A stretch of 64,000 nucleotides of DNA, from NCBI RefSeq assembly GCF_017874475.1, contig NZ_JAGGLO010000002.1:124001-188000 (forward strand), given 5' to 3'. Below, piece by piece: positions 14,245-19,196 of this stretch. The stretch's first letter is position 1. The number at the start of each line of letters is the position of its first letter. The notes below the pieces were generated by a model, which was not told the DNA's origin, did not search any database, and was given only the letters and a program-made list of their open reading frames with translations. Both the position numbers and the translations under genes were made by a program. The stretch is from Anaerococcus degeneri (GTDB taxonomy: Bacteria > Bacillota > Clostridia > Tissierellales > Peptoniphilaceae).

Positions 14245-15303
14245 TTAAAGGTCGTCTTCAATTATTGATGATTTAGAATAAGCAGTTACTTTTGCTTCGA
14301 AAAAGTCAGTCTTAACTGCATTTGGATCTGAATACTCATCTACCCATTTCATTGATTGTGGGATTTCTGTATAGCCTTCAAAGAGTGGCTCAAAGCCAAG
14401 TCCCTTGGCACGAAGGTTGCCCAAATATTTGATATAATCTTCAATCATTGTTGTTGAAAGGCCCGGTATATTATCACCTATAGCATACTTGCCCCATTCG
14501 ATTTCTTGGCGTACACCTTCTTTTAGCATTTCCCTATAAATATGGGTTGCTTCTGGTGTGAAAAGGTCTGGCCTTTCCTTTTTAAGGTCGTTGATCAAGG
14601 ACCTAAATAGCCATAAGTGGGTGTTTTCGTCCCTGTTGATGTATCTGATTTCTTGAACAGTTCCTGGCATCTTGCCATTTCTTCCTAGGTTGTAGAAGAA
14701 GGAGAATCCTGAATAGAAATAGATTCCTTCAAGGATATAATTTGCAATTAGGGCCTTTACAAATTGGAATTCATTATCCCTTTCCAAAAATTCGTTATAT
14801 TGGTCACCGATAAATTCATTACGTCTTAGAAGGTGGTCGTCTTCCTTCCATAGGTATAAAATCCTGGTTCTTTCTTCTGGCGAACAGATGGTATCAAGAA
14901 TATATGAATAAGACTGAGAATGGATTGACTCTTGGTAGGTCTGGATTGACAGACAAAGGTTAATCTCATTTGCAGTTACATAGGTCTGTAGGTTTGGCAA
15001 ATTTGCAGTCTGGATAGAATCAAGATAGGTTAAAAAAGAAATGATCATGTCATAGGCTCTTTTTTCGTGCTCGTCAAGATTCCTGTAATCTTTTATATCC
15101 TGATTTAAATTTACTTCTTCTGGAATCCAGAAATTGTTCATAGCCTGTCTGTACCAATCTGATGTCCAGGTGTATTTTAGGTTGTTAAAATCGTTAAGGT
15201 TTGTGGTATTACCTTGGATAATTTTTCTCTTAGCAAGATCAATATCCCCATTTTCATTGAAAATCCCACGCTTTTCGACTTCTTTTCTTTTACTTTCTTC
15301 CAT
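14245..15303 (-). CDS. nrdB: Ribonucleoside-diphosphate reductase beta subunit (class Ia)
   Basis: The 352-residue radical-generating subunit makes the tyrosyl radical that NrdA uses to reduce ribonucleotides. The di-metal ligands are all present: Asp95, Glu125, His128, Glu192, Glu226 and His229. The radical tyrosine is Tyr132 in QESIHSQSY. The ATG at 15303 is preferred over the GTG one codon upstream because AGGAGG lies five bases before it. A small membrane-protein gene lies 9 bp upstream in the same transcript. Its partner nrdA is 1.4 kb upstream, separated by a repeat island. NrdF-type naming cannot be excluded. Confidence 0.93.
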   Translation of the reverse strand: MEESKRKEVEKRGIFNENGDIDLAKRKIIQGNTTNLNDFNNLKYTWTSDWYRQAMNNFWIPEEVNLNQDIKDYRNLDEHEKRAYDMIISFLTYLDSIQTANLPNLQTYVTANEINLCLSIQTYQESIHSQSYSYILDTICSPEERTRILYLWKEDDHLLRRNEFIGDQYNEFLERDNEFQFVKALIANYILEGIYFYSGFSFFYNLGRNGKMPGTVQEIRYINRDENTHLWLFRSLINDLKKERPDLFTPEATHIYREMLKEGVRQEIEWGKYAIGDNIPGLSTTMIEDYIKYLGNLRAKGLGFEPLFEGYTEIPQSMKWVDEYSDPNAVKTDFFEAKVTAYSKSSIIEDDL

Positions 15304-15312
15304 CACTACCTC

Positions 15313-15645
15313 CTAAGAAATGATATTTAAAACAACAGATGAAACAAATGACAAAATAATTGATGCAAAAACCAAACTAAATAGATGGGAATCAATATGG
15401 GCCCCATCAACAAATTTAAAAGCCAAATACAAAACAAAGGCACTGATAACAAAGGAAAATAAACCCAATGTTAAAATAGTAATTGGAAAGGCAAAAAACC
15501 TAAGCACAGGCTCAACAACTCTCTGAAGCAGGGTCAAAACAATAGCTGTAATAATAAGCGCCGAAGTCTTGTCAAATGAAATATGGCTGATAAAATTACT
15601 CATTAAAAATAATGAAATAGCATTTGCAATAAATAAAATTAACAA
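15313..15645 (-). CDS. Small four-helix membrane protein (YvlD / phage-holin-IV-like family)
   Basis: About 110 residues with four hydrophobic helices, matching the PF04020-type family (YvlD-like, formerly 'phage holin family'). The role of these chromosomal proteins is not settled; an envelope-stress link is known for some relatives. The likely start is a TTG at 15645, because AAGGAG lies six bases before it. An upstream in-frame TTG at 15669 has no ribosome site. It is co-transcribed with nrdB, an unusual partner. Confidence 0.7.
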   Translation of the reverse strand: MLILFIANAISLFLMSNFISHISFDKTSALIITAIVLTLLQRVVEPVLRFFAFPITILTLGLFSFVISAFVLYLAFKFVDGAHIDSHLFSLVFASIILSFVSSVVLNIIS

Positions 15646-15691
15646 AATAAACTCCTTTTTTTCATCCAAGATGAATTGTTCTTATAATATT

Positions 15692-15769
15692 ATTATACCA
15701 GATATTTGTGTTTTTTTCTTATCCGAGATAAGTTATCTTTTTTCTTATCCGAGATAAATTATCTTTTTT
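15692..15769 (-). promoter_or_regulatory. Promoter with two tandem 26-bp operator-like repeats
   Basis: On the minus strand an extended -10 (TGGTATAAT; hexamer at 15692-15697) lies about 47 bp upstream of the small membrane-protein gene. No -35 consensus is present. Instead two direct repeats with a 26-bp period (15718-15743, 15744-15769) each contain TTATCCGAGATAA and an overlapping GATAA-n-TTATC palindrome. Placement near -40 and -66 suggests activator sites. The regulator is unknown. Confidence 0.5.
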
Positions 15770-15826
15770 TCTTTAATACAATATTAATTATTATCTTTTA
15801 TTATTTCTTAGTCATTGACGTGACTG

Positions 15827-15951
15827 CTCCGTAAAAAGGGGAGCCCTAGGGAACGTTTCGCACGTTCCCTCATCGGCTCCCCTTAAACCCCTTCCGTTAC
15901 ACCCTCCGGGCGACCCCTCTCGGGGGATATTGTGTTTGCCTATCGGCAAAC
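15827..15951 (+). repeat. Left arm of the inverted-repeat island
   Basis: CTCCGT is followed by a perfect 10-bp outer stem AAGGGGAGCC/GGCTCCCCTT enclosing an inner AGGGAACG/CGTTCCCT hairpin. TTAAACCCCT and a GC-rich tract follow, then the hairpin GTTTGCC-tatc-GGCAAAC (15934-15951). The order matches the right arm read on the other strand. Confidence 0.7.
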
Positions 15952-16407
15952 ATGTTGGTATGGCGGTGTCCTTGTTTAAGTTGTACTATATCCAAACTTT
16001 TTTAAAATCCCAAGCCTCCTAAAAATTGCAATCTCGTCTAACTTGTGCTTTTTATTTTTAATTAGTTCACAGTATTTATATTGCTTTTATTCGTAAGTTG
16101 CTGTCAGTGCAATTTTCTTTACGGAGTCTTGGGATTTTAAAATACTTAATCTTAAGTTTTTTAACTCTTCGTTTGAAAATGAAAAACTCATCTAGCAATG
16201 TTTGGCAAAGCCAAACGAGCCTGGGACATTCTAGAACCTCGAGGCTAGTTCTCTCCTTTATTAGGCAAAGATTTCTAATCAAGTGTTGCGTTAAAAAAAC
16301 TGATTGTTTGAGCGTTAGTGAGTTATCAGTTTTTAGCAACCCGACGATTAGAAATCTGTGGGGAGATACGTAATCTTATACAAGGTAGTTCTCTCTACAC
16401 AAAAAAA

Positions 16408-16540
16408 GCTTGCCTAAAAGGCAAGCATCATTATCCGCACTCCGCCAAGGAGCCGCTCGGGGGTGTAGCCGAGAGGGGTTTAAGGGGAGGCGGGTGAGGG
16501 ACCCTGCGGAAGGTCCCTTGGGCCTCCCCTTAAAACGGAG
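16408..16540 (-). repeat. Right arm of the inverted-repeat island
   Basis: Read on the minus strand it repeats the left-arm order: CTCCGT (16535-16540), the AAGGGGAGG/CCTCCCCTT stem with inner GGGACC/GGTCCC, TTAAACCCCT, a GC-rich tract, then GCTTGCC/GGCAAGC (16408-16426). The arms differ at many positions, but changes in the stems keep pairing, as in the GGGAACG versus AAGGGACC inner hairpins. Confidence 0.7.
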
Positions 16541-16667
16541 TTGCCAAGTGAATAACAAATTTTATTTTATTTACCTAATTCCGAAGAATCAAGATATATA
16601 AACTTATCGTCTAATAAATAGAAACTTTGTAAATCAAACAAAAAATCCATTATTAATTGTAAGAATC

Positions 16668-19196
16668 CTATGCGGAGCAAGTATCACACTCTTCTACCTC
16701 AAGTGATTTTCCTCTCACATAGTAAATACTCTTCACTCCTGCTTCCCACGCTGTTAGGTAGACATTTAAAATCTGTCTCATGGTGTATTCGGTGGTGATA
16801 TAGATGTTTACCGATTGGGCTTGGTCAAGGTGACGTTGTCTGATTCCTGCCATGCGCATTGAGATATTTTGGTCTATATCGTGGGCATTTTCATAGAGCC
16901 AGAAGGTCTTTGTGGTTAATCCTGGTGCCACTCTTGGGACTATGGCGCCTTTCTTTTCTTCTAGGAAATAGCGGCTCATGATTGGGTCTACTCCTGCCGA
17001 TGTGCCCGAAATTATTGATGTTGATCCTGTTGGGGCTATTGCCATTAGGTAGCCATTTCTTAGGCCGTATTTTTTAACATCTGCAGCGAGTTTTTCCCAT
17101 CTTTCTGAAGAATAATCTCTATCTTTAAAATAGGCTCCTGTTTGCCAGTCGCTTCCTTCAAAGACTTTGTAGGATCCCTTATCTTTGGCGATTTCCACAC
17201 TTTCCTTGATGGCATAATAATTTATATCCTCATATACCCTGTCAACAAAAGCTGCGTGAGCTTTTTCGTCCGACCACCTGATGTCATTTTTTACTAGCAT
17301 GTGGTGGTAGCCGCTGGTGCCAAGGCCAATTGCCCTATATTTTTTGTTGGTAACTTCCGCATATGGGGTTGGGTAGTAGTTTAGATCTATTACATTATCA
17401 AGAGCCCTTACAACTGTCCTTACAGTTTCTTCAAGCTCTTCGGCATTATTCACATCAATTTTACCAAGGGTTAGGCTTGCTAGGTTACATTCCACAAAGT
17501 CGCCTGGCTTGGTTTTGTTCACTATAACAATGTCTCCATCTTCTGTGACTATTTCTGTAGAAACAGTTTCTGATGTGCTCATGTTTTGAGCAATCTCTGT
17601 GCAAAGATTTGATGAATAAATCATTCCCATGTGCTTGTTTGGATTGGTTTTATTTACCAAGTCTCTATTGAAAATGAAAGGTGTGCCTGTTTCTGACCAA
17701 GACTTGATTAGAAGCCTTACCATATCTTTTATTGGCATGACCCTTCTAGAAATTTCCTTATCGGCAACTAATTTTTTGTAAAATTCTTCAAATTCGTCTC
17801 CGTAAGTATCTTCTATGGCCTTGCCATATTTTTTTACAACCTCATGTGGGTCGAACATATACCAGTCACCTTCCATGTTATCTTTCACTTGCTTCCAGAA
17901 TAAATCTGGCACGCAAACTCCTGGGAAGACGTCATGGGCCTTCATTCTGTCATCGCCGTTGTTGGTTCTAAGTCCCAAAAACTCAGGCATATCCTTATGC
18001 CAAATATCAAGATAAACTGCCACAGCCCCCTGGCGAACGCCTAGCTGATCAACTGCCACAGCTGTATCGTTGGCAAGCCTTATCCAACGGATAACCCCAC
18101 CTGCAACTCCCTCAAAACCACGGATGTCAGACCCATTTGCCCTTACTTTTCCAAAATACATGCCCATGCCGCCACCGTGTTTAGAAACTTCGGCAAAATT
18201 GGTGATGGACCTATAAATTCCCTTTAGGGTATCAGGAACAGTTTCTATAAAGCATGATGAAAGCTGATTAAATGGCTTTCTAGCGTTGGTCATAGTTGGT
18301 GTTGCCATAGTTGCCTTTAGAGTTGATAAGATATCGTAAAGTCTTTTAGCAAAGGCGACCCTATTTTTTTCTGGAATTGCTAAGTGCATAGCGATTCCCA
18401 TAAACATCTCTTGGACCCTTTCCAAGATGCGGCCATCGTAGTTAGTGATTAGGTATCTTTTTCTCAATAAATCTAGGCCTGAATAGGTGAAAATGTCATC
18501 TCTCTTATGGTCTAGATATTTTTCTAGTTCATCTATATCTTCTGACGAGTAATTTTCGAGTATATAGGCCCCGTAGAGTTCTTTTTCTGTCAAGAACTTG
18601 AGCTTTGACTTAAAGTCGTAGATCTCGTAGCGTTCTTCCTCTTCTCTTATTTCTAGGTTTATCTTGTAGGCTAAAAACCTTGCTGCGATTATTTCCCAAT
18701 CTGGGGCTTCCTTGCTGGTTAATTCGCTTGCAGCACGGATTACAGCGTCTAAAACTTCCTTGTCGTTCATTTCTGGCTTAGTGAAGGACTCAAACTTGAA
18801 ATAAAGTGACTCTATAGGATACCTTTGGCTATCAAATTCTCTTTGAACCTTGGAAATTATCTCCATTAGGTCCTTATCGGATACATAAGTGCTAAAGTCG
18901 GAAATTACCTTCCTATCCATGTTGTGCTTGGCACGGTAGAGGATAAAGGATTTTACTTCCCTGTAATAATTTTCATCGATTAGATTAAGCTCAACCAAAT
19001 CTTGAACTTCTTCTACCGTCACAGTGTGGTCGGCTGGCAACTTCTCCTCGATTGTCCTTACAATCTTTTGGGCAATGTATTCAAGCTTTTCATCAGTAAT
19101 TGTAGAATCTACCGACTTAAAGGCCTTGAATATAGCTCTTTTGATTTTTTCCAATTCAAAATCAACTTTTGACCCGTCTCTTTTAATAATCTTCAT
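16668..19196 (-). CDS. nrdA: Ribonucleoside-diphosphate reductase alpha subunit (class Ia)
   Basis: The 842-residue catalytic subunit reduces NDPs to dNDPs. An ATP-cone allosteric domain spans about residues 1-95. The active-site redox pair is Cys315 and Cys570, and the radical-site trio is Asn530, Cys532 and Glu534 in SSNLCTEI. The C-terminal tail ends CDTCSA, whose cysteines (837, 840) pass electrons from thioredoxin. Thioredoxin genes occur at 27.5-28.6 kb. The ATG at 19196 follows TTGGAGTT. nrdB lies downstream on the same strand beyond the repeat island and has its own promoter. Confidence 0.96.
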   Translation of the reverse strand: MKIIKRDGSKVDFELEKIKRAIFKAFKSVDSTITDEKLEYIAQKIVRTIEEKLPADHTVTVEEVQDLVELNLIDENYYREVKSFILYRAKHNMDRKVISDFSTYVSDKDLMEIISKVQREFDSQRYPIESLYFKFESFTKPEMNDKEVLDAVIRAASELTSKEAPDWEIIAARFLAYKINLEIREEEERYEIYDFKSKLKFLTEKELYGAYILENYSSEDIDELEKYLDHKRDDIFTYSGLDLLRKRYLITNYDGRILERVQEMFMGIAMHLAIPEKNRVAFAKRLYDILSTLKATMATPTMTNARKPFNQLSSCFIETVPDTLKGIYRSITNFAEVSKHGGGMGMYFGKVRANGSDIRGFEGVAGGVIRWIRLANDTAVAVDQLGVRQGAVAVYLDIWHKDMPEFLGLRTNNGDDRMKAHDVFPGVCVPDLFWKQVKDNMEGDWYMFDPHEVVKKYGKAIEDTYGDEFEEFYKKLVADKEISRRVMPIKDMVRLLIKSWSETGTPFIFNRDLVNKTNPNKHMGMIYSSNLCTEIAQNMSTSETVSTEIVTEDGDIVIVNKTKPGDFVECNLASLTLGKIDVNNAEELEETVRTVVRALDNVIDLNYYPTPYAEVTNKKYRAIGLGTSGYHHMLVKNDIRWSDEKAHAAFVDRVYEDINYYAIKESVEIAKDKGSYKVFEGSDWQTGAYFKDRDYSSERWEKLAADVKKYGLRNGYLMAIAPTGSTSIISGTSAGVDPIMSRYFLEEKKGAIVPRVAPGLTTKTFWLYENAHDIDQNISMRMAGIRQRHLDQAQSVNIYITTEYTMRQILNVYLTAWEAGVKSIYYVRGKSLEVEECDTCSA

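Follow-up and report, generated by a model that had tools for sequence, protein, structure and literature searches.

What is the gene-free, hairpin-rich island beside nrdA in Anaerococcus degeneri, a mobile DNA element or a large structured RNA? We analyzed a 64,000-nucleotide stretch of this genome (the window, to which all unprefixed coordinates refer), in which the island core, 15810-16556, is flanked by nrdA (16668-19196, minus strand), whose product is ribonucleotide reductase alpha, and by a small gene (15313-15669, minus strand) that matches Pfam Phage_holin_4_2. The original prediction had placed a gene-free island at 15820-16549, splitting nrdA from nrdB. The ORFs overlapping the island are indeed of chance size only (59-91 aa), consistent with the lack of coding capacity of a MITE; however, the small gene separates nrdB (14245-15306, minus strand) from the island, so that a third gene intervenes on the nrdB side. 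The proposed ends were slightly off, as the start cuts the palindrome at 15810-15825 and the end is overrun by its partner at 16541-16556. With these corrections, the observation as a whole was confirmed as real, and its interpretation was partly supported.

We then delimited the core of the element with two alignments, one covering 31 copies in three genomes and the other 19 long-form copies; the window copy appears in these as a long form that extends from a terminal palindrome to a degenerate terminal palindrome. Features common to the aligned copies are the terminal palindrome, which carries CTCCGT/ACGGAG, and two arm hairpins, one per side; there are also small hairpins and two modules, left and right. 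The left terminal palindrome AGTCATTGACGTGACT (15810-15825; equivalents in other copies, GGTCATTTACATGACC) is followed by the left arm hairpin (15836-15885; helices 2 and 3, two-sided change in 9 of 18 pairs) and by the small hairpins CCCC-TCTC-GGGG and GTTTGCC-TATC-GGCAAAC (15914-15951, minus strand; helices 9 and 10), whose loops are GNNA on the minus strand. The left module (15995-16147, minus strand; inverted repeat I2, helices 11-15) appears, as we read its sequence, to be the frame of domain B on the opposite strand with an apex about 75 nt larger; short-form copies have an ordinary inverted domain B in its place. The hairpin GTTTGGC-AAA-GCCAAAC (16200-16216, plus strand; helix 18), at which most other copies have GNA or GNNA loops, leads to the right module, domain B itself (16268-16358, plus strand), which was identified by a match of our domain-B model R1 (G000:C2:140268-140358) and by covariation. 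Domain B comprises an outer stem, an internal loop GTTAAR/TAG, with GTTAAG/TAG as its signature form, an inner stem, and a conserved apex, in which TGTTTGA and GAGTT enclose a mini-stem with a GNA or GNNA loop. Behind it lie the hairpins GCTTGCC-TAAAA-GGCAAGC (16408-16426, plus strand; helix 25) and CTCC-GCCAAG-GAG(C) (16440-16453; helix 26, its stem invariant among the 19 copies), the right arm hairpin (16479-16534; inverted repeat I5, helices 27 and 28, two-sided change in 9 of 19 pairs), and finally the ACGGAG end sequence with the degenerate right terminal palindrome (16535-16556, the palindrome at 16541-16556), as judged from sequence, alignment, and helix 1. Terminal inverted repeats, as in a MITE, were found by the inverted-repeat search, the alignment, and helix 1. 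The predicted inverted arms are also present, at 15874-15918 and 16448-16492 (45 nt, 71% complementary), together with four more inverted pairs. At the apex (16308-16328) and its equivalents, GA flanks both sides of the short GNA-loop stem, giving tandem G-A mismatches that are reminiscent of an RNA kink-turn or of sheared GA pairs in DNA.

Outside the core, two TTATCCGAGATAA mini-palindromes (15719-15731 and 15745-15757, together 15719-15757) were recognized as direct repeat D1 and from the flanks of copies, and similar ones outside many copies may be part of the outermost ends of the element. Mini-palindromes of the type TTATCNNNGATAA are plentiful near copies, including 15719-15757, and elsewhere. 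Cassettes of 21 and 83 nt lie inside the arm hairpins of some copies in both orientations, and inverted domain-B pairs framed by arm hairpins also occur in congeners, for example at L015 (G006) and L016 (G005).

The window copy is one among many in its own genome and in sister species. The own genome (G000) contains 44 matching pieces. We interpret these as nine long-form copies of about 700 bp and five short-form ones, all near-complete, together with three or more partial copies; they are dispersed, like those of a MITE. Seven copies (one partial) and small fragments are located within 43.7-72.6 kb of contig C8. Complete copies were also found in G016 and G002, and 19 of the 61 relatives searched gave some match. 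A blastn search of plasmid and phage sequences returned no match to the element, and a 17-mer scan of genome contigs returned matches in two unrelated MAGs. Comparison by blastp of the ORFs flanking 30 loci revealed no common protein, the similarities being five pairs, each from related genomes or one genome, and the distant pair L182/L185. The open-access literature searched held no description of this repeat family.

The island had been thought to be under selection on structure, with compensating changes in the stems of its two arms. These changes hold among homologues and beyond the two arms. The window copy folded with z = -21.2 on the plus strand and -13.6 on the minus strand, and none of the 20 shuffles was as low on either strand. 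We tested covariation on 19 of the 22 long-form copies (omitting L034 and L035, which carry 83-nt inserts, and L061, which has a gap in its center); as the copies are related to one another, the pair counts, like the loop counts given below, are not independent. Among 163 pairs, 96.2% of cells were paired (shuffled mean 91.2), 41 pairs showed two-sided change (28.1 in shuffles), 188 cells were two-sided (68.1), and the covariation score was 0.212 (0.120), and none of 500 shuffles reached any of these values. Displacing the partners by 1-3 columns left 37-55% of cells paired, and further pair types were not above those in shuffles (reached in 332 of 500). Helices 11-15, which form the stems of the left module, are nearly invariant and carry little covariation information. 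A second alignment, of 28 domain-B cores chosen by hand for diversity from 73, gave 92.8% paired cells (73.1 in shuffles), 115 two-sided cells (36.9), and a score of 0.552 (0.187), each unmatched in 500 shuffles, and two-sided change in 12 of 18 pairs, which was reached by 11 of 500.

Such strong covariation and low folding energy would suit a large structured RNA or a 3'-UTR RNA element, in which domain B binds a protein or ligand, duplication disperses the copies, and selection on the RNA accounts for the covariation. The conservation of unpaired loops between families points the same way, as do the wobble pairs in the 28 domain-B cores, where G-U outnumbers A-C by 12 to 2, and the rarity of divergent neighbor genes (3 of 38 loci). 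In contrast, over 126 hairpins aligned without strand preference, GT:AC was 123:120, and at mismatches within helices of 127 hairpins, aligned in the same manner, it was 63:37, as compared with 11:1 in the acceptor stems of 30 tRNAs as a control. Among tandem neighbors, the antisense orientation relative to the motif outnumbers the sense orientation by 18 to 7; neighbors were classed by a simple ORF rule at 45 distinct loci, 38 of which have both neighbors, after three motif-less loci and repeats had been omitted. Furthermore, among the perfect hairpins (at least 6 bp, loop of 3-4) in the 31 related copies, 66 of 83 have a GNA or GNNA loop on one strand, against 1.55 of 10.3 in shuffles, and this strand changes between the halves of the element: the right half has 31 such loops on the plus strand and 0 on the minus strand, and the left half has 33 on the minus strand and 2 on the plus strand. 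At the third position of GNNA, purines occur 25 times and pyrimidines 13 times. GNA and cGNNAg loops are unusually stable in DNA. Rfam at gathering score returned no match at the window locus, group II introns included, and only a 5S rRNA and two tRNAs at 15 further loci; a permissive search gave six matches far below gathering, none of them credible. Since the loop polarity flips between the halves and G-T barely exceeds A-C, DNA hairpins are the likelier constituents of the element; with copies that also hop between sites, the large RNA that had been envisaged appears distinctly improbable.

Turnover was examined at sites shared between genomes. At the nrd site, G000, G016, and G002 carry the element, and G028 carries none. 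For the subtype of the window copy, no empty site, target duplication, or clean junction was found; the empty sites that the original prediction proposed to look for were seen in the sister clade described below. The counterpart of the window copy in G002 begins, in this one case, directly behind a terminator-like hairpin after nrdA. At the nrd site of G011 (L073), an element remnant is cut by an insertion whose frame is a putative transposase. In nine orthologous-site pairs, the orthologue ranked 4-9 of 9 copies in the other genome and always scored below the best own-genome copy, copies at the same site being less alike than copies at other sites, and three of the pairs that link G000 to another genome combine different forms. 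In addition, a block between inverted copies in G000 lies inverted in G016, which we ascribe to probable recombination between the copies.

Occupation of the same sites in sister species, mosaic content, and the apparent block inversion between inverted copies could also be read as signs of a resident chromosomal repeat of the BIME/REP type, no longer mobile and kept by a host function such as terminator back-up or gyrase or nucleoid binding, whose compensating changes arise by gene conversion and template switching between arms. Template switching can create and maintain hairpins, according to PMC8794818. It leaves unexplained, however, why loop sequences are common to several families. Copy number is also highly variable, with 0 to 29 R1 matches among congeners, and empty sites with near-identical copies in the clade of G007 and in G266 argue for recent movement there. 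We therefore regard a purely resident repeat as rather unlikely.

In the sister clade (G007 and its relatives), domain-B palindromes occur singly, with lengths of about 200 or 325 bp, and in near-identical copies. At locus L270 of G007, a 198-bp domain-B palindrome is located between two near-copies of AACCTAGATTAAACTAGGTT; the same site in G008, G030, and G001 has a single copy of AACCTAGATTAAACTAGGTT and no element, and the flank matches overlap by 20 bp, as in an empty site. Eight other genomes were compared at this site, among which G009 is also without the element, with a short unaligned gap, and G003, G014, G017, and G023 gave no continuous alignment. The two flanks were alike (score of at least 10) in 15 of 19 sister-clade loci, namely L270 and 18 hand-picked regions that include the near-duplicate loci L369/L370 and L378/L379, as compared with 9 of 342 mismatched pairings. 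Exceptions include L367, with a score of 9, L379, masked on one side, and L381, abutted by another IS end. L377 (G008) is a further exception, its right terminator hairpin being exactly reverse-complementary to the left one, T-run and A-run included. Most of the flanks form hairpins; a T-run lies to their right at 16 of the 19 loci, the orientation is constant, and by this make-up they are terminator-like, resembling intrinsic terminators. Copies of about 320 bp in this clade (L364-L373, L380, and L381) have a hairpin-bearing insert of about 130 nt that replaces part of the domain-B apex. G266, with 57 matching pieces, has flanking repeats of 14, 8, and 7 bp in three of eight copies, of which only the 14-bp repeat exceeds the controls (maximum 11). 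A search of G266 for an autonomous version, in 14 stretches by blast layout, two of which were read, gave no pair of ends enclosing a gene.

We then investigated the enzymes that could have moved these elements. IS1182-family elements in G007, G016, and G008 begin with CAGACTGTAGACAAAGTA or TAGACTGTAGACAAAGTA directly behind a hairpin, and the end CAGACTGTTGATAAAGTA of the L270 palindrome matches IS1182-family left ends at 16, 15, and 16 of 18 positions, a level above that of 60 shuffled 18-mers (14 or fewer); the other end of the sister-clade palindrome agrees with the IS end at 11-12 of 18. The G007 transposase passes the NCBIfam cut-off for IS1182. As described in PMC4923244, IS1272 and TnSha1 of this family insert into hairpins, several of them shown to be terminators, with partial deletion of the hairpin and in both orientations. 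PF13751 was detected in 5 of 11 genomes searched and is missing from the element-rich G030, G003, and G002, so the transposase is not present wherever copies abound. In the own genome, the intact IS1182 copy (L385) differs in its ends from the window's subtype, so that the common ends expected of a MITE and its partner are not seen there, and no mover of this subtype was found. The domain-B apex is absent from the IS1182 copies examined, and hairpins occur at both ends in L382 only, whose right inverted repeat is not clear.

A second type of enzyme, the Y1 transposase (RAYT/IS200-type), would move REPIN-like elements by acting on single-stranded hairpins. The inverted hairpin pairs and GNA-type loops resemble REP doublets, and Y1 genes are present in 21 of 31 congeners. 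Nevertheless, G030, G002, G003, G008, and G021 have 12-21 R1 matches and zero Y1, and G026 has seven Y1 matches and zero R1 matches. To our knowledge, Y1 elements do not duplicate a target hairpin, whereas the sister-clade copies do duplicate theirs. As copy number is untied to the presence of Y1 and element-rich genomes lack it, we rejected a Y1/RAYT partner, and a Y1-driven origin is highly improbable.

Taken together, the island is probably one copy of a non-autonomous, hairpin-targeting mobile DNA repeat family, consisting of palindromes within palindromes, that grows by insertion of hairpins into hairpins and is homogenized between copies. We base this on the direct observation of dispersal and, in the sister clade, of empty sites, flanking hairpin duplication, and an IS1182-type end. 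The non-autonomous mobile element, possibly with nested MITEs, of the original prediction is accordingly borne out by dispersed copies, sister-clade empty sites, flanking hairpin duplication, and nested hairpin cassettes. Transposases able to recognize DNA hairpins, an ability reported for IS1272, a member of the IS1182 family, would move the elements in trans, now or formerly. Because the element itself consists of hairpins, copies and cassettes could insert into each other, giving rise to the nesting. Gene conversion between copies, possibly with template switching between arms, would then produce mosaic copies and complementary arms. The subtype of the window copy probably had the same origin, near the nrdA terminator.

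Domain B also recurs outside the own genome and its sister species, usually as more than one copy per genome and with differing stems. Model R1, whose training set included some genomes afterwards searched, matched 24 of 31 genus genomes, with 1-29 matches each, and 12 of 299 phylum genomes from seven families, eight of the 12 having at least seven matches; the phylum copy numbers are lower bounds, since no more than 14 candidates were scored per genome. The apex 19-mer was likewise found in 12 of the 299 phylum genomes, ten of R1's 12 genomes being common to both sets, and the reversed apex pattern in none of the 299. In most of the 30 loci inspected, the 19-mer caps long hairpins, and the stems of these hairpins vary from family to family. 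Since IS1182 ends do not account for apex conservation in families whose ends are different, we tentatively entertain a further possibility, that domain B is the recognized portion of a distinct mobile-element class occurring across several families of the phylum. These palindromes would have the apex and the internal loop GTTAAG/TAG as their signature, which some hairpin-binding enzyme would read in single-stranded or cruciform DNA, with ends and stems left free to vary; such elements would acquire ends and hairpins from those they encounter, including IS1182 ends, and grow by mutual insertion.

The favored reading, a hairpin-targeting repeat family, has parallels in several known systems. 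With IS1182, IS1272, and TnSha1, the repeat probably shares hairpin targets, which PMC4923244 describes for the IS elements, and the sister-clade palindromes share one end; unlike these IS elements, it has no transposase gene, contains a conserved internal hairpin module that they lack, and, in the sister clade, doubles the hairpin that IS1272 partly deletes and inserts in constant orientation, whereas IS1272 uses both. The ends of the window's subtype also differ from those of the IS1182 family. The repeat resembles a MITE in being non-coding and multicopy with inverted ends and, in the sister clade, empty sites, but it conserves a hairpin apex rather than its ends and is a large composite of nested hairpins. 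BIMEs and the REP-REPIN system are also mosaic intergenic hairpin repeats of alternating orientation (as outlined in PMC2817692), although the present repeat is far larger and its copy number is untied to a Y1 transposase. Group IIC introns differ in that the locus has no Rfam group II match and the sister-clade target hairpin is duplicated. Insertion behind intrinsic terminators is a habit of these introns.

Our analysis offers a concrete mechanism, terminator-hairpin insertion with self-nesting, for a puzzling type of intergenic structure that is large and covaries. Bacterial intergenic DNA can owe strong covariation and conserved loops to DNA palindromes, which then mimic structured RNAs in covariation-based screens. 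The results also raise the question of whether some protein, and which one, reads a hairpin apex common to bacterial families with otherwise unrelated stems.

Viral contigs contain at least 80 stretches with the apex 19-mer, and in 25 of the 80 listed the 14 neighboring bases pair at eight or more positions; several of these 25 are near-identical and some have a swapped internal loop, and the other 55 resemble a different conserved or chance sequence. Domain-B-like hairpins were noted in IMG/VR contigs (L280, L351, L338, L275, and others), several of them swapped, with TTTTTAG on the 5' side and GTTAAG on the 3' side. Finally, nested in the stem of one copy in G266 (L251:2200-2380) is another palindrome, about 160 nt long and unlike the first.
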